DNA from: Xiphydria camelus
Taxonomy: Eukaryota; Arthropoda; Insecta; Hymenoptera; Xiphydriidae
Assembly: GCA_963678675.1 (NCBI GenBank)
Contig: OY783198.1
Span: 4,097,001-4,161,000, forward strand
DNA length: 64,000 bases
Direction of reading: 5' to 3'
Shown: positions 55,201 to 64,000 of the stretch, in pieces
How positions within the stretch are numbered: the stretch's first letter is position 1
How the letters are laid out: every line of letters begins with the position of its first letter
Notes under the pieces: generated by a model
What the model saw: only the letters and a program-made list of their open reading frames with translations
The model's database searches: none
What the model was told of the DNA's origin: nothing
Program-made: the position numbers and the translations under genes

Positions 55201-55957
55201 CTACGAGTGGACGGGAGTGCTACAAACCAACCTGCATCATGTTCACGAGGCGATGACCTCGCACGTACTGACGGAAGGTTTCAACTCCGCGCGGATGGCG
55301 CCTGGTAAGAGCATTCAGAGATTTCAGCCAATCCTGGCGACCCATGCGCTAGAGTGTCCAATCAGATTGCCGAAATCCCCGCGAGGCCTGCCAACGGTAT
55401 CTACCCACTCCACTGTAGCCGGCCTTCTGTGGAATGCGAGCAAAGCCGGTGTCTGGGGGAACTGGAGTGAAAGTTATGGCCGTACGGCGCAATCGGTAGT
55501 ACGTTGCCCTAGGTCAGGATTGGGTCACCGCGCTACGTATGGAGGGAAACTTTAAACGCTTATAACTTTGGAACCGAGCAAGATAATCGAACCGGACAAA
55601 GTGCGCTGTATTCAGCATACGATCAGGCTTAATTGGCGGGTGAAATTGTACATGATTTTTCAAGTGTAAGGCGAAAACTTAAAATGCTTATAACCGGTTT
55701 GAAGTCGAGCGAGTTAATTCGATCGAATAAAACGTGACGTATTTGGCGTGTAATTAAATTCGAACAATGCAAATTTTTACAGCGCTTGCCTTCGGTTCCA
55801 TATTTCAGAGATTCTCGTATGCACACACGCAAATATTTCGAGTTTTCTATCTCCGAGCGGAAATGGGAAACAATGTTCTCGCTAAATAGAGGGGTTTAAC
55901 ATCTCTTTGTTACATTGCAAATTGTTACATATATTAACAAATTGATGCTATTACAAT

Positions 55958-56853
55958 TACACAGCTCCACAAAAAAAATCGAAAAAATGCTTCCTCTCTG
56001 ACCAAACCAATATATCTTTATGTTTTTGGGGTCGCTGAATCCGAATCTGGTGTCCGTTTGTCTCCATCACGTCACATTTTTTTTAATCTCAAAAAATCAT
56101 CAATAGATCATGATTTTCAAAAAGTTCATGGACTTAAACCAAATTCGCTATAAGGGGTTTTTTGGGTCGCTGATCACGAATCTCAAATCGGATTTCAAAA
56201 ATTCCAGATGGCAGATCCAATATGGCGGACGATATTTTTGAAAATCGACGGATTCATGCCGAATTTGGTATAAGGAGTCTTTTTGGGTCGCTAATCATGA
56301 ATCTGAAGTCAGATTTTAAAAATTCAAGATGGCGGATCTAATATGGCACACGAGATTGTCGAAAATTTTGAATTTTTGTAAATATAACCATATTCGTCAT
56401 CGGCGATCGAAAAAAAAACCCTATACCAAATTTTGCATGAATCCGTCGATTTTCGAAAATCTCGTCCTCCATATTGGATCCGCCATCTTGAATTTTTAAA
56501 ATCTGACTTCAGATTCATGATCAGCGACCCAAAAAACCCCCTTATACCAAATTTGGTATGAATCCGTCGATTTTCAAAAATCTCGTCCGCCATATTGGAT
56601 CCGCCATCTTAAATTTTTGAAATCCAATTTAAGATTCGTAATCAGCGACCCAAAAAAACCCCTATAGCGAATTTGGTTTAAGTCCATTACCTTTTTGAAA
56701 ATCATGATCTATTGATGGTTTTTTGAGATTAAAAAAAATGTGACGTGATGGAGACAAATGGACACCGGATTCGGATTCAGCGACCCCAAAAACATAAAGA
56801 TATACTGGTCTGGTCAGAGGAAGCATTTTTTCGATTTTTTTGTGGAGCTGTGT
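55958..56853. mobile_element. About 0.9-kb foldback element with internal subrepeats
   Basis: The ends ACACAGCTCCACAAAAAAA and its inverse TTTTTTTGTGGAGCTGTGT bound the element. The whole sequence reads the same on both strands with few mismatches. Within each half a unit of about 128 bp is repeated: GGGTCGCTGATCACGAATCT, then AAGATGGCGGATCCAATATG, then GAAAATCGACGGATTCATGC. A single hairpin of more than 400 bp per arm is possible. No transposase. Confidence 0.85.
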
Positions 56854-57195
56854 TATTCTTACACATAAATGAGCTGCTCTGCATAAAGAAAGGCTTCTGC
56901 TATTTATGCAACTACATTGCTAGCATATGTAACAGCTTGACATAAGTCAAAAGAGGTTTTGGGTCGAAGGAGAAAAAGAGGCGCATAGTAGAAGTAGACA
57001 AAGGAGCATGTACAATTTCAACGGAGAGCCTAAACGAAATCGACGAAAAGCCTATACGAATTCAAAAAATACCACAAACGAGTTCCACAATACCATAAAC
57101 TAGTGGAACAAGGGGTTGCGAGAGAGTGTGGAATAAAGGTGGCTCGTCTCGTGGCTTTCTTTCCCAGTATCTAGGATTGTAATATGATTATTTCT

Positions 57196-57900
57196 TAATG
57201 CAGCTAGAAGTTCGTTAAATGTTTCTACAAACGTCATTTGCATCGTAGCTGCTGGGGATTGCATAGGAATGCATTGACTAGACTCGGTGACGCTTGTAGG
57301 GATATACAACGAGCTTCTCTAAGATGCATCAAGCGATACCTGCATTGTTGCGCGTCCCTGCAAACGTCCTTGTATCTGATCAATGCATTTCGCTGCAATT
57401 CTCACATCTACGATACGACGAACGATTGCAGACACACGCAACGATGCTGGCATACAGCTCGGTGCATATCTCTGCAAGCATCATCGTGTTTAGTCGATGT
57501 ATTTCTGTGCAATCCCGGCAGCTACGATACAAATAGCGTTTGCAGAAACGTTTTAACGAACTTTTAGATGCACCGTGCTCTGTACAAGCATCGTTGCACG
57601 TGTCTCCAAGCGTTCGTCGTATCATAGACGTGAGAATTGCAGCGAATTGCATTGATTGGATACAGGGACGTCAGCAAGGACGGGAGACGATGCATGTATT
57701 GCTCGGTGCATCTTAGAAGTCCATTGCATAACTTTACAAGCGTTGCCGTATCTAGTCAATGCATTCCTATGCAATCCCGGCAGCTATGATGCGAATGACG
57801 TTTGCAGAAACGTTCAACGAACTTCTAGAAGCACCGAGTTATATGCAAGTATCATAGCGTGTGTCTGTAAGCGTTCGTCCGTATCGTAGCGCAGCGGAAC
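57196..57900. repeat. Cluster of about 110-bp repeats in both orientations
   Basis: The unit contains TAGAAGTTCGTTGAACG, TTTCTGCAAACGTCATT, ATCGTAGCTGC and GATTGCATAGGAATGCATTG. It occurs at 57199-57310, inverted at about 57715-57845, with more diverged copies at 57380-57470, 57479-57570 and 57570-57660. The outer pair is roughly 85-90% alike by eye. Confidence 0.7.
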
Positions 57901-58058: not shown

Positions 58059-58146
58059 AACTGTAAGAAACATTCATCGAGTTCCGTACGCAATTAACAT
58101 TGCTCGGGGTATTGCAGAAACATTCGTTTCAGTCCGAAAAGCCCAA

Positions 58147-58164
58147 GAATCTTCCAGAGTTTTC
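58147..58164. promoter_or_regulatory. Heat-shock element array 3 (distal)
   Basis: GAA-nn-TTC-nn-GAG-nn-TTC: four alternating 5-bp HSF units, three perfect and one with a single mismatch. Confidence 0.55.
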
Positions 58165-58393
58165 GGAGCTCGTCGTGATCTGTAGATATTATTTCCCTGT
58201 AGTATTTCGTAGAGGATCGTTAAACTCGTTCTCCTGGATACAAAGTTGCAAGATATAAACACACGGACACCGGGTTTCAATGTGTACGAAGGTCAGGCGA
58301 GTTGGCTAAGGGATACATTGTAGCTGCGCCGTCTATCGCTCTATCTCTCTATCGACCGCACGACGCGCATATCGTGCCCTCTCGCTCGCATCG

Positions 58394-58416
58394 TTCGAGA
58401 ACCTTCGAGAGGCTTC
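58394..58416. promoter_or_regulatory. Heat-shock element array 2
   Basis: TTC-ga-GAA-cc-TTC-ga-GAG-gc-TTC: five alternating units with exact 5-bp spacing, four perfect. CT-rich GAGA-factor-like tracts (CTCTCACTCG) lie beside it. Confidence 0.75.
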
Positions 58417-58474
58417 GGTTTTCTCACTCGCACTCGCGATCTTCCATTGCTCTCTCACTCGCACTCATGGTCGT

Positions 58475-58492
58475 GAATTTTCGAGAATCTTC
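58475..58492. promoter_or_regulatory. Heat-shock element array 1 (proximal)
   Basis: GAA-tt-TTC-ga-GAA-tc-TTC: four perfect alternating HSF units, about 35 bp upstream of a TATA-like box and about 65 bp upstream of the inferred start. Confidence 0.8.
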
Positions 58493-58525
58493 TATCCCCC
58501 ACTCCCGACCACCTGTTGGCTGAAC

Positions 58526-58532
58526 TATATTA
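58526..58532 (+). promoter_or_regulatory. TATA-like box
   Basis: TATATTA downstream of the heat-shock elements. A start about 30 bp further on would fall near 58556-58558. Confidence 0.55.
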
Positions 58533-58989
58533 CCGAACGCAGCGGCGATTTCGGCGGAGTCTCCCAAGGGTTGTCAGCCCACTGGTAACACGGTGGGACG
58601 CTTTTTATCTGGCTTCCTACAGGAGGTGCTCCCCCTCCTTGTCTCGGTCATCTGCTGCATCAGGCTCAATCGTTAGCACGGTTCGAGACGTTTTGGGGCA
58701 TCGGCGAGAGCCGTGGGCCCGGCGAATGCGAGGAAAGCATTCACGGGTTGCGATGCCGAGCCAAGGAGCCTGGGTGTGGGGCCCAGGGCCCCCGGAATAT
58801 TCCGCGTAGGGCGACTTTATAGTCGCCTCTTGCGCCGTTTAATCCGGGCGCGATAGGAGGAAGGGTGGGATGGGTGGGTGGGTCAAGAAAAGAAGAGAGA
58901 AGAAGACGAGCGAAGACCAAGTGCCCGGCTCAACAAAGGATGGCCGGTTTTTGCATCTCCGACGGAAATTTCCGGTGAGATTTCACTCT

Positions 58990-59095
58990 CTCCCGCTTTC
59001 TCTGTGTTTCGCGATGATTCGATGTTCGCGATGTGTTTCCGCGATGTGTTTCTGTGATCGCGATGTGTTTCTGCGTTTCGCGATGACTCGATGCC
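58990..59095 (+). repeat. Short tandem GCGATGTGTTTC repeats
   Basis: Variants of GCGATGTGTTTC and TTTCGCGATGA recur about six times inside the inferred first intron of the candidate RNA. Confidence 0.75.
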
Positions 59096-60019
59096 CCTGA
59101 AACGCGTTCCGTGTCGATTCGTCCGACTCGGAGTGAATTCTAGAGTTTCGGCTTCTATTTTCGTGGAGCTCCGCTTCGTCGAGCGATTTCCTCGGGAATA
59201 CGTGGTCGTCTCTAATCGTAGTTTTCGTTCTGCGTTGCAGGCGGAGCGAAGGAGGATGAAAAGTCCACTAAACGCCCGTACTTCGGCTGGGTCGTGGACT
59301 AGAGCCCCGTCACGAGCACTATGTGGTGAGTGATATTTATTTCTGCAATAATTCGATCGATTCGCGGTTTCGAAGATCTGCTTATCATAGAAGTTATCGG
59401 CTTTCGCGTCGTCGACCGATTCCTTTCGAACAGTATATCCGCGTGCAATCCGTTTTTCGTGCGTCGCTCCAATTCAAATCGCTTCGAGATTATTTCCAGT
59501 GCGAATTAAAAATCTTTTTGTCTAACGATTCGAGCATCGGCTTATCATACAGTTTGTCGGTTCTCGCGTCGTCGGTCGAATTCGTTCGAAAAGTTCCTCT
59601 CCGCGCAGTTCGTGTTTGCACGCGTATTCGATCCGAAGGTTCCTTATCGTTGTTTTTATCACGGTGTCTCGTCGCGTCCGTCGTTTTCTCCTGAAATAAA
59701 TCATTTCGCTGATCACGTAATTATTCCGTGATCGCAGACGGAGAGCATAGGAAGTCGACTTCGGGGGTCGACATATCCATTCAACCGCGGATTGTCGACG
59801 TTTGAGCGCCGTCACTAGTCTTATGTGGTGAGTACTATTTTATTTCAATATCCCGGGAGTTGTGTTCTGTGATTGTGTATCGCTTAAAATCAAACGCGTT
59901 TATCGTTTCGGGAATATCATCGCGCTTTCAAGTTTTCTTCGTACGAATGGGATATTCATTTCGAATCTTGTCGATGTGAATCCTAGGTTATCATTCGCGT
60001 TATTTATTAGAAACTTGTA

Positions 60020-60164
60020 CAATAGGAAGAACAATGAGCGGGAAACAGAATAGTGCTCTCGACTAATCTCGTCACTGCTTTAGAGCATCCTTTGCTAAAG
60101 CAGTAATGTGATTGGTCGAGAGCGCTTGCTTCTGTTCCCCGTTCCAGACCTATTCCTTCTATTG
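60020..60164 (+). repeat. 145-nt hairpin in the fourth proposed exon's upstream intron
   Basis: CAATAGGAAG...GGAAACAGA...GCTCTCGACTAATC...ACTGCTTTAG pairs with CTAAAGCAGT...GATTGGTCGAGAGC...TCTGTTCCCC...CTTCTATTG around a loop of about 12 nt (GAGCATCCTTTG). It could be a long miRNA-like precursor or a MITE. Which, if either, is undetermined. Confidence 0.6.
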
Positions 60165-61138
60165 CGCAGAGGCCGTCAGTTCTCGTGCTGTCATTCCGTT
60201 CGAAAGAAATACAACGGTCGGAATCGTTTAATTGTTGCAGACGGAGTGAATTAAAGACACAATGTCCAGTTCGACGACGAGTACGAGGCCTCGGCTTCGA
60301 TTCGTGCGAAAGGCTGTCGTCCTCGGGCTTCCGTCACGAGTATTTCATGGTGAGTTATGATTTCTCAATTCGCGAAGTTATTGCATTATCCGCTGCGCTC
60401 TTTCGGATGCGCAGTCGTTAGTTCCCGAATTTTCCCCGCGTATACGTTTCAACTTTAATTTTCATCGACGCAACATTCGGTTCATCGTAAATTCTCGCGA
60501 TACTGTTCGACTCTCCGCAAATTATATTCCTTCGTTGATCCGAATACTCGTTTGTCTCAGATGGAACGAATAATAAAATACGACGTTCGATTCGACGACG
60601 AAATCAAGGCCCGAGCTGCAATTTTCGCGAAGGGCTGTCGTCGCGGGGCCTCCGTCACGAATATTTCGTGGTAAGTTCCAATTTCTCTTCATTTGAAATA
60701 CAACTTACATTCCAATTCGAACGTAGTCATTAATTCGCGAGTGTTATCACTGTGCGTTTGTTTAGACAATGATTTTTATCCGAAAAGTTCAGTTCATCGT
60801 AAATTTGACTGATTCTCGCATTACTGCTCGATTCCTCTCAAAATAAACTCTCTCGTTGATCCAATTGTTCGTTTGTCGTAGCCGGAGCGATCGCTGAATA
60901 TTAAGTCGACTTCGAGGGCTGATAGCTTCGGCTGGACCGAAGACTGTCGGCATTTGGCTCCGTCACGTGAATTTCGTGGTGAGTACAGATCGAATATAAA
61001 ATCCACTCGATATTTAAAAGACGATCCACCGAATTTCGTCCAAAAAACAGCGATTCCTAATCGTAAACGTCTGTCCATTTCAGATATTAATTGGCAGCCG
61101 TATCTCGGAGACGAGCGTCGCGGGATCCTCATCGCCGA

Positions 61139-63300
61139 GTAAGTCCCAGCTGTCAAAGTTCTTCCACCGTCTCTCGGTACGCGATTTGGCGAAATACCGA
61201 GAGCGCGGTGGTCGTATTTATCTATCCTATGACTATCCCTTTTTTCGCGTGGTGCAACGACGTCCGCGTTACATATTTGCAGCGAAATGCGCGGAAATTT
61301 AATAGCTCCCAATTGTATTGCTTGGAGCGGAACGCTTCGTGTTCACACAGGTCGTTAGTTAAATCTCGAAATTGTTTTATCTTTCAAGAGAAAAATATCA
61401 AATCTCTTTAAACGTTTCATCTCAAATGTAGGTTCTAATTTTCGCTGCAAATTTAGATCTAAGCCCGAGGTGCGCAGACGTTCGATGGACGCGAATAAAA
61501 TGAAATTCCTTCTTTTCTTCGAAAATTAAACATCGAACGTTCTGTGCATCAATCGGAACGTATATCAGGGAACTTTGTTCGCTCAGCCGCGATACGCGAA
61601 TACTTGAATATTTTTTTCGAATCGTTGCCAGAAACCAACGTAAAAACTTGGTTTCACGCGTTTGAATCGCGGTCGGTTATTTTTCTTGGATTTTTTTCAG
61701 GAGTCGAGTCAAGTTAAAAAATTCGAGTTTTCTTATGTTTCTTTCAGAGTAGATTCTCGCTCGTTTTGTCATCGTAAAGCTAATAATAAATTGGTTAAAG
61801 TCGTCCGGTAAAAATACGATAGCACTTGTCGAAAGTGCAGTCGCGGCGTAGAATCGTAGAGTAGGACAATCGCGATCCGATCCGTCTTTCGCGTCGTATT
61901 CAACCATTGAGAAGGGGTTGAGGAGGAATCTCCCCCTTCTCACGCGACGAGGGAGCTATCCAAAGGAGGAACCAGATATACCACGTGCGAATGTTGAATG
62001 TATGTGTTGGTGAGCATGTTCGTTTTTTTGGATATACAGGGGTTAGGTAGGCTTTTCGCGATTATGGCCATCGTTTTTAAATATAGGTGGATAGGTAGGG
62101 CTCCGATATACGAATTATCGCGTCGCGAATTTGGCCAAAGTGTGACTGAGAGTGCGAGGTGTTTAATTTTCAAATAACTGCACCGTTGCAGTCTTGCCCG
62201 CTGCTAGTATTAATGCGGCTAACGATCGTTGGTCTCGTTTCGTTTTCCCTTCCGGCTCGTACTTGCGAGATGATTATTCTTCGGTAAGTCATTGTCGCGC
62301 GGCTTTCATTTCGATGTTTGAAGGCTTCCATCGAATTCGAAAAGCGGTAGGCAAAGACATGCGAAGGATATCCTTTCGCGAATTCGATTTCGAAGTTTCG
62401 TTATCGCTTACTGGAGCGCTCACGAAACGCGTTCGCGTGCAATCGAATTTCGCGACGCACCGCGAGATCATGAAAATTACATCCCATTGCTTTTTCGCCC
62501 GCGTTTTCCAACGATCGTTAGGCGAGGCAACGGCGAAGTCGCTAACACCGTGATGCGTGGTGCATGGTGGCAATCGGTTTCGCAAGCCGTCTGCGACTTC
62601 GCCTTGCCAGAAGAAAGAAGAAAGAAGTCATCAGTGAAGAGGACGCCGGTCGTTGCACCACGCACCCGACCATAACGGTTCGTATAATTTCGGAGGAGTT
62701 CTCGAGACTCTTCTGCAAATTTTCGAAATTTGCAGAACATATCGAGAATGAATCTGGAATTGAATACGTCCTATGGTTTTTCTTCTTTTCCTCTATCTTT
62801 CTCTCCATATGTTCTTTCTATTCAGAAGAAAGCAAAGTAGGCGTGCGATTTGTATGCATTTATTCTGAACATATAATTTTCAGAATTTTAGAAATTCAGT
62901 CATGAAACATTTAATTTCTCCAGTTCAATTTAATTCATTTTAATGTATTCCTTGCTTTTGATAAAAGTCAATTCTCTTTGAACGATATTCTTCATGGTTT
63001 AATAAGCTTCAAAATTTATTTCCGGTGCATATTGAATATGCAATATTTTGTGAGATTTTTTAGTTCTTTTATTCAATCGTAAATTTGATACAGAAAATGA
63101 TTTTACAAACTGAAATATAGTAAAGGAAATGTAATAGAGTTCCTCGTATAACTAATGATATACTACAAATAAGGTTCATGGCTATAATATTTTCAAAAGA
63201 TTATTCAATCCAATAAGTGTACAGCTTTGCTTCCGCCGTTTTTCCGAAATTCAAGGCTTTATTATAAAAAACTGGTTATACATTTATGATTCAAAGTATT
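61139..63300. other. Region between exon array and satellite
   Basis: No supported protein gene; open frames at 62.2-62.9 kb are short and lack homology. An exon-like segment at 62192-62283 has an acceptor GTTGCAG and donor GTAAGTC. The nonamer ATAGGTAGG is at 62091-62099, with near matches at 62043-62051 (TTAGGTAGG) and 62083. Confidence 0.5.
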
Positions 63301-64000
63301 GGGGCCGTGGTCGTTTCGCTTCATAAATCGCGGATCGCGGTAGTAATACGTTAGGTTCGTCCGTAATTATTTAGAATGCATAGCGCGATAAAAATTAAAG
63401 GAGAGAGTGTCGGATTTGGTGACTCTCACTGACGTGGGCGTGGATGGGGCCCTGGTCATTTCGCGGCATACCTAACTCGCGGATCGCGGTACTAGTACGA
63501 TTGCTTCGTTCGAAATTATTTAGAATGCATAGCGCGATAAAAATTAAAGGAGAGAGTGTCGGATTTGGTGACTCTCACTGACGTGGGCGTGGATGGGGCC
63601 CTGGTCATTTCGCGGCATAACTCGCGGATCGCGGTACTAGTACGATTGCTTCGTTCGAAATTATTTAGAATGCATAGCGCGATAAAAATTAAAGGAGAGA
63701 GTGTCGGATTTGGTGACTCTCACTGACGTGGGCGTGGATGGGGCCCTGGTCATTTCGCGGCATACCTAACTCGCGGATCGCGGTACTAGTACGATTGCTT
63801 CGTTCGAAATTATTTAGAATGCATAGCGCGATAAAAATTAAAGGAGAGAGTGTCGGATTTGGTGACTCTCACTGACGTGGGCGTGGATGGGGCCCTGGTC
63901 ATTTCGCGGCATACCTAACTCGCGGATCGCGGTACTAGTACGATTGCTTCGTTCGAAATTATTTAGAATGCATAGCGCGATAAAAATTAAAGGAGAGAGT
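63301..64000 (+). repeat. 149-bp tandem satellite, open at the window end
   Basis: Monomers start (GGGGCCSTGG) at 63301, 63446, 63595, 63740 and 63889 and continue past the last base. The first copy is diverged. Later copies are nearly identical, except that the monomer starting at 63595 lacks four bases (CATAACTCGC against CATACCTAACTCGC). Each unit contains TTTAGAATGCATAGCGCGAT and GTGACTCTCACTGACGTGGG. There are no long open frames. Confidence 0.95.

Follow-up and report, generated by a model that had tools for sequence, protein, structure and literature searches.

The stretch of DNA analysed here (hereafter the window) comprises 64 kb of the genome of Xiphydria camelus, at positions 4097001-4161000 of contig C22 (OY783198.1) in an assembly of 357 Mb and 38 contigs. 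Towards its right edge lies a locus in which arrays of binding sites for heat shock factor (HSF) and a TATA-like box precede a predicted series of small spliced exons and a tandem satellite, and which an earlier note, made from the sequence alone, had proposed to be a counterpart of the Drosophila heat-shock noncoding RNA locus hsr-omega. The locus is one copy of a dispersed repeat unit, and it is on balance probable, by analogy with known stress RNAs, that it belongs to a family of at least 41 HSF-driven, spliced and structured noncoding RNA loci with a satellite tail, working like hsr-omega and the human SatIII RNAs. The features on which the argument draws, including the 27-codon open reading frame (ORF), are listed below in window coordinates.

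About 54815 to about 69426, plus strand: dispersed repeat unit, from genome searches; the part in the window ends at 64000
58147-58164, no strand: HSF-site array 3 (11/12)
58394-58416, no strand: HSF-site array 2 (14/15)
58475-58492, no strand: HSF-site array 1, the only perfect 4-unit site of the 64-kb window
58526-58532, plus strand: TATA-like box TATATTA, from the sequence, retained across copies
58550-58813, plus strand: near-invariant structured 5' block, from copy alignment and fold
58550-58974, plus strand: predicted exon 0, from TATA spacing; donor GTGAGA in all 18 rows
58726-58809, plus strand: 27-codon ORF, beginning at the first ATG that follows 58550 in the predicted transcript
59241-59325, plus strand: predicted exon 1, from the exon-end motif and splice sites among copies
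59738-59827, plus strand: predicted exon 2, on the same evidence
60241-60349, plus strand: predicted exon 3, from the exon-end motif; damaged or lost in copies L030 and L031
60561-60670, plus strand: predicted exon 4, from the exon-end motif and splice sites among copies
60882-60978, plus strand: predicted exon 5, on the same evidence
61084-61138, plus strand: possible exon 6; donor GTAAG retained in 11/11 aligned copies
61164-61211, plus strand: predicted long hairpin CCACCG..CGGTGG, from sequence and copy alignment
62034-62107, plus strand: conserved block with TTAGGTAGG (62043) and ATAGGTAGG (62091), from copy alignment
62505-62723, plus strand: second long conserved block, from alignment, with a predicted long stem at 62526-62608
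63324-66507, plus strand: 149-bp satellite array, from tandem repeat analysis; the part in the window ends at 64000

HSF sites were scored as alternating GAA and TTC triplets in 5-bp phase over the 64-kb window. Its two best five-unit sites start at 58394 and 58470 (both 14/15) and lie 58-156 bp upstream of position 58550. Six overlapping 4-unit windows score at least 11/12, five of them within 58147-58492, where 20 dinucleotide shuffles of the window give 1.0 on average; a chance origin of the sites was rejected on this basis. The three phased arrays and the TATA-like box described in the earlier note thus hold up under both the scan and the shuffles. CT-rich tracts are interspersed among the arrays. 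The spacing to the invariant block that begins at 58550 is about 58-75 bp for the HSF array and about 24 bp for the TATA-like box. Promoters were compared among 18 rows, which represent 17 distinct loci, one row being repeated. At 17/17 distinct loci the best 4-unit site within 450 bp reaches at least 11/12, a score attained by 0.75% of 400 random 450-bp stretches of the window. The TTCnnGAAnnTTC core of array 1 is likewise present in 17/17, and the proximal TTCGAGAATCTTC core and the TATA-like box are retained at all 17. For comparison, the coding frame of an Hsp83-type HSP90 gene on contig C17, identified by eye, is preceded at a distance of about 400 bp or more by a five-unit array scoring 15/15. 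Another HSP90 match, on C29, has no strong array in 1.5 kb, which is not a clean negative because its coding start was not seen in that stretch. Judged by these sites, the locus carries an HSF-type promoter.

A transcript start is predicted near 58550-58560 from the TATA spacing. Downstream of it, five exon ends have the common pattern CCGTCAC...TG/GTRAG (the slash marks the exon boundary) and five acceptors match AG.[CT]GGA[AG], a motif found at no other site in 58.9-71 kb. Six introns of 105-413 nt are predicted, the sixth acceptor being the least certain. In 18 rows, representing 16 distinct copies, no damage is seen to the donors of exons 0-5 or the acceptors of exons 1-6, other than near exon 3 in L030 and L031, whose acceptor of exon 1 reads AAG. 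The repeated spliced-exon units seen earlier are therefore upheld as predicted units, by the shared exon ends, the matching acceptors and the retention of splice sites.

The earlier statement that the region encodes no credible protein, its first ORF having 27 codons, also stands. A Pfam scan of ten ORFs in or near the unit gave no domain above cut-off, and no transposase or other transposable-element domain; one match, to Spatacsin_C, stayed below threshold (E 0.0052, 16.4 of 25 bits). For the frame 58480-58809, none of 11 candidate protein homologues reached E<=1. A protein-coding gene was rejected on these grounds. A snoRNA host gene was rejected since the window holds no Rfam match at gathering scores, the nine matches in 58-64 kb (E 0.12-9.3) all lying far under them. 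The locus was also rejected as the leader of the next gene: what we take to be the next recognisable coding frame after it, an ALG9-like frame recognised by eye, lies at about 71 kb, past the satellite and the end of the unit. A tRNA search found none, and the patterns tried against viral and prokaryote sequence collections gave no match.

The reading as a single locus, like 93D of Drosophila, is not supported. Searched with 59230-61150, the assembly yielded 109 matching pieces, spread over 10 contigs, and the main pieces are 87-97% identical, introns included. When the promoter and the first exon served as query, 60 candidates were obtained, of which 40 were scored loci, and an exact 113-bp pattern covering the ORF had 39 genome matches (19 forward, 20 reverse); the reversed control of that pattern had no match in the assembly. 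Two of the scored loci (C10:38.78 Mb and C17:5.43 Mb) are not exact for the 113-bp pattern and one exact match (C28:24.056 Mb) is absent from the scored loci; because the two sets differ in this way, the lower bound is 41 loci. The unit, roughly 14.6-15 kb long, is thus present in at least 41 copies on 10 contigs. The extent first given to the feature, 58147-64000, was right as far as it went, but the unit is wider, reaching from about 54815 to about 69426. In its left part, a large palindrome-like repeat with 121-bp repeats in opposite orientations occupies 55955-56857 and occurs in several copies; a second palindromic stretch lies at 57200-57890.

The 149-bp satellite noted earlier downstream of the exons was recovered from 63324 and continues past the window to 66507, so that the array of this copy is about 3 kb long. 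Among the matches listed, the satellite lies downstream of a unit and in the same orientation at 22/22 loci, at 4.3-13.3 kb from the first exon of its unit. These loci were grouped by eye from part of 253 genome matches; the one at C24:26.77 Mb was judged from a partial unit with no exon 0 match, and that at C17:5.44 Mb from an approximate unit coordinate. This linkage led us to reject the satellite as an independent neighbour: in the copies examined, as judged from their sequences, it is part of the repeated unit. None of the 14 best HSF sites listed per array length falls in the satellite at 63300-64000. The nonamer ATAGGTAGG, which the earlier note had singled out, does occur, once in 121 kb, at 62091, but not inside the satellite array; it is retained in 10/11 aligned copies, and its sister motif TTAGGTAGG lies 48 bp upstream.

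Constraint was assessed by comparing copies. Ten were retrieved, and their alignment to the window covers 58100-63330 (for L032, 58418 onwards); about one third of its columns vary or are gapped. Of the forty-base windows, 633 contain at most two variable or gapped columns, against a mean of 0.13 and a maximum of 12 in 500 permutations. The long conserved blocks are 58541-58922 and 62505-62723, and the shorter ones include 62034-62107. Within the first, 58550-58813 has 1 variable site in 264 over 11 copies and starts about 18 bp past the TATA-like box, where the transcript start is expected. Nearest pairs were then compared among 16 distinct copies forming eight disjoint pairs (L021 and L016, identical to L025 and L029 respectively, were dropped; row L022 lacks 58550-58621). 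The introns differ at 353/11454 sites (3.1%), the block at 3/2038 (0.15%; Fisher p 1.7e-21 versus introns) and the rest of exon 0 at 24/1288. Similarly, of 15 other copies, an intron 113-mer matches 0.39 on average and never more than 4, and the block matches all 15. The terminal branches of the intron tree, which sum to 0.25 in a sample of 16 of the at least 41 copies, so that some of them include unsampled splits, lead one to expect about 66 changes in the block, or 34 if the three longest branches are left out; the observed number is three, at two positions. Gene conversion may be responsible if it acted on the block alone, and would then have to end at the transcript start. In the copies examined, the sequences thus combine high copy number, promoter retention and splice-site retention with strongly constrained sequence in the 5' block and in 62505-62723, and this constraint adds support for a functional RNA. 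The predicted fold of 58550-58900 beats all 100 shuffles (z -3.3); that of 62520-62700 does not differ significantly from shuffles (z -1.6).

The unit would comprise an hsp-type promoter, a structured first exon of about 420 nt, small spliced exons, two additional conserved blocks and a satellite tail. By analogy with hsr-omega and SatIII, HSF would fire the copies together under heat or proteotoxic stress, RNA polymerase II would read into the satellite, and the RNA would stay nuclear as a scaffold or sponge for RNA-binding proteins. The hnRNP A/B proteins prefer UAGG, and proteins of this type might be partners at the UAGGUAGG motifs. Dispersal was probably transposon-like, the copies being kept afterwards by selection.

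Several observations weigh against this interpretation. The sharp left end of the unit looks like that of a mobile element, and it would be unusual for selection to be so strong as to retain every one of about 40 copies. Exons 1-5 differ at 117/3816 sites between nearest pairs, as much as the introns, so that the notion of exons more conserved than introns was rejected for them and most of the spliced body is unconstrained in sequence. The 149-bp satellite does not contain the nonamer, and HSF array 2 is deleted in at least 5/10 copies (L024, L026, L027, L028 and L030).

The main rival, a real contender to which we give clearly less credence, is a selfish non-autonomous mobile element whose HSF promoter and 5' block serve its own spread with no gain for the host. 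Besides the dispersal of the copies, it draws on the ends of the unit. Twelve long matches begin exactly at about 54815 and a few within 13 bp, and some copies are similar further left; the end falls on the same base in 8/8 fetched copies, these having been picked for that start. Three of the eight left flanks are alike and two more carry fold-back sequence. On the right, similarity of the window copy ends at about 69426, and three other copies run about 315 bp on to a common end. TACCGTATGTA stands next to the left end in 1/8 flanks and its complement at 3/3 right ends, no target-site duplication being established. Fold-back sequence also lies near the right end of copies (L057:181-421), and related sequence adjoins the left end in several. 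Together these sequences suggest small inverted-repeat elements at the unit ends. Moreover, 38/41 loci lie within 8 Mb of contig ends, versus 20.7 expected if they were uniform on the same contigs. The absence of transposase or other transposable-element domains from the ten ORFs speaks against such an element, although it does not exclude one of the terminal inverted repeat type, because many copies in families of that type are non-autonomous. The copying of introns and satellite along with the rest implies that dispersal did not proceed by spliced RNA. The block is constrained on terminal branches too, an outcome not predicted by selection for past transposition alone. Heat-responsive mobile elements of the ONSEN type and transposon-mediated duplications similarly combine a dispersed, sharp-ended repeat with a promoter of heat type. 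Unlike them, this unit has no coding capacity that was found, its splice sites and RNA block are constrained after dispersal, and its inverted ends are putative.

An improbable alternative is that the selected product is the 27-residue peptide, the remainder being leader and noncoding tail. In its favour, an invariant run, 58650-58813, stops 4 nt past the stop codon of an ORF opened by the first ATG. However, the 176 nt preceding the ORF are equally invariant, and all of its about 19.7 synonymous sites are unchanged, where about 4.5 would be expected to vary over 11 copies at the intron rate; the absence of a protein homologue for the surrounding frame points the same way. A role as RNA (or DNA) is therefore favoured over the peptide alone.

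That the locus is a true, highly diverged orthologue of hsr-omega, as the earlier note had allowed, is very unlikely, no positive evidence for it having emerged. The order of parts is the same (HSF promoter, short ORF in exon 1, splicing, tandem repeats and a nearby nonamer), the hsr-omega plan being that described in PMC9865238. Copy number, intron number and a repeat without the nonamer stand against it, and no homology is shown. It is hardly more credible that the invariant block functions at the DNA level, say as a downstream promoter or pausing region, with the RNA incidental: it does begin at the predicted start site, but 264 bp would be a considerable length for a signal of this kind, another conserved block occurs 4 kb further downstream and the RNA folds better than its shuffles.

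The comparison with hsr-omega therefore holds in part. The HSF-type promoter, the spliced noncoding model, the short first ORF (27 codons here, 23-27 there) and the downstream tandem repeats bear out the likeness drawn earlier, and the ATAGGTAGG motif is present. The nonamer inside the repeats is a feature of hsr-omega; here it lies outside the array. The classic two-exon plan with one intron of about 700 nt, as presented in PMC9865238, does not fit the six introns predicted here, nor does the single-copy status stated in PMC9032817 fit 39 exact block copies and the dispersal of the unit. A near-invariant structured 5' block further distinguishes the present locus. Like the human SatIII (HSATIII) stress RNAs, the family has many genomic satellite copies linked to HSF control; unlike in SatIII, the HSF sites lie in a promoter with a TATA-like box and spliced exons, and the window array is short, at about 3 kb. 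In the literature, hsr-omega is described as conserved across Drosophila and human SatIII as a proposed analogue (PMC9865238; PMC9032817). Among the matches listed in a literature search covering titles and abstract openings, with subscription papers mostly outside it, there was no recognised non-fly hsr-omega and no such dispersed family. We do not file the locus as an hsr-omega member, and infer only that it may work like one. It is a candidate counterpart of hsr-omega outside flies, in an unexpected multicopy form. Its precise conserved RNA block lends itself to probing, to removal or to searches in other Hymenoptera, and the family is a case in which to ask how selection persists on a dispersed repeat at about 40 sites.

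A bolder version of the preferred interpretation, which we regard as doubtful, holds that a heat-inducible, satellite-tailed architectural RNA has spread, as a gene family of mobile-like character, over at least 41 sites, at nearly all of which selection maintains it, and that its small exons are built so that their junctions complete hairpins (for instance CUCCGUCACGAAUAUUUCGUG joined to CCGGAG), the fold reporting whether splicing works in heat shock. Five spliced junctions fold at -10.1 to -15.0 kcal/mol, the unspliced forms at -5.2 to -9.7, and 1-5 of 111 decoy acceptors do as well as the real ones. Against the idea, the sixth junction, E5/E6, completes no hairpin (-6.4 spliced, -8.4 unspliced, 69/116 decoys as good), an exon end often pairs better with the start of another exon than with its own partner, and the E1/E2 hairpin is missing from the optimal fold of exons 1-6 when joined. 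Comparison of the copies showed no stem pair with changes on both sides; pairing was kept by 8 changes and broken by 6. Variation is lower at stem sites than in the remainder of exons 1-5 (13/100 versus 114/404), in part because of splice-site constraint. Internal stems (GUCCAC/GUGGAC in E1, for example) occur in all five exons, with a chance per exon of 0.26-0.51 and a product of 0.013; one of five scored registers misfits (E2, 28.6% paired). Both the internal stems and the junction hairpins are thus weak leads from modelling. Joined exons 1-6 have a fold z of -4.3, and some introns also reach -4.8. That value is found for predicted intron 2, which contains an imperfect inverted repeat at 60014-60160. 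Near 59880-59941, about 270-300 bp of additional sequence is present in most of the other aligned copies.

Upstream, the locus adjoins a Smaug gene on the minus strand at 45-48 kb. For its fused translation, identity is 74% to Orussus abietinus (92% of the query covered) and about 67-75% to the named bee proteins among the matches listed, with no near-identical protein among the best 120 of these. On these identities the genome is hymenopteran, in agreement with what had been surmised from the letters alone. Further reading frames were recognised by eye; we take those at 33-36 kb to be Asap-like, and filamin-like and Bms1-like frames presumably accompany the ALG9-like one downstream of the locus. 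About 12 kb from smaug, exon 5 contains at 60926-60942 a CUUCGGCUGGACCGAAG hairpin with a CUGG-type loop, which we take to resemble a Smaug recognition element, a resemblance that may be coincidental.

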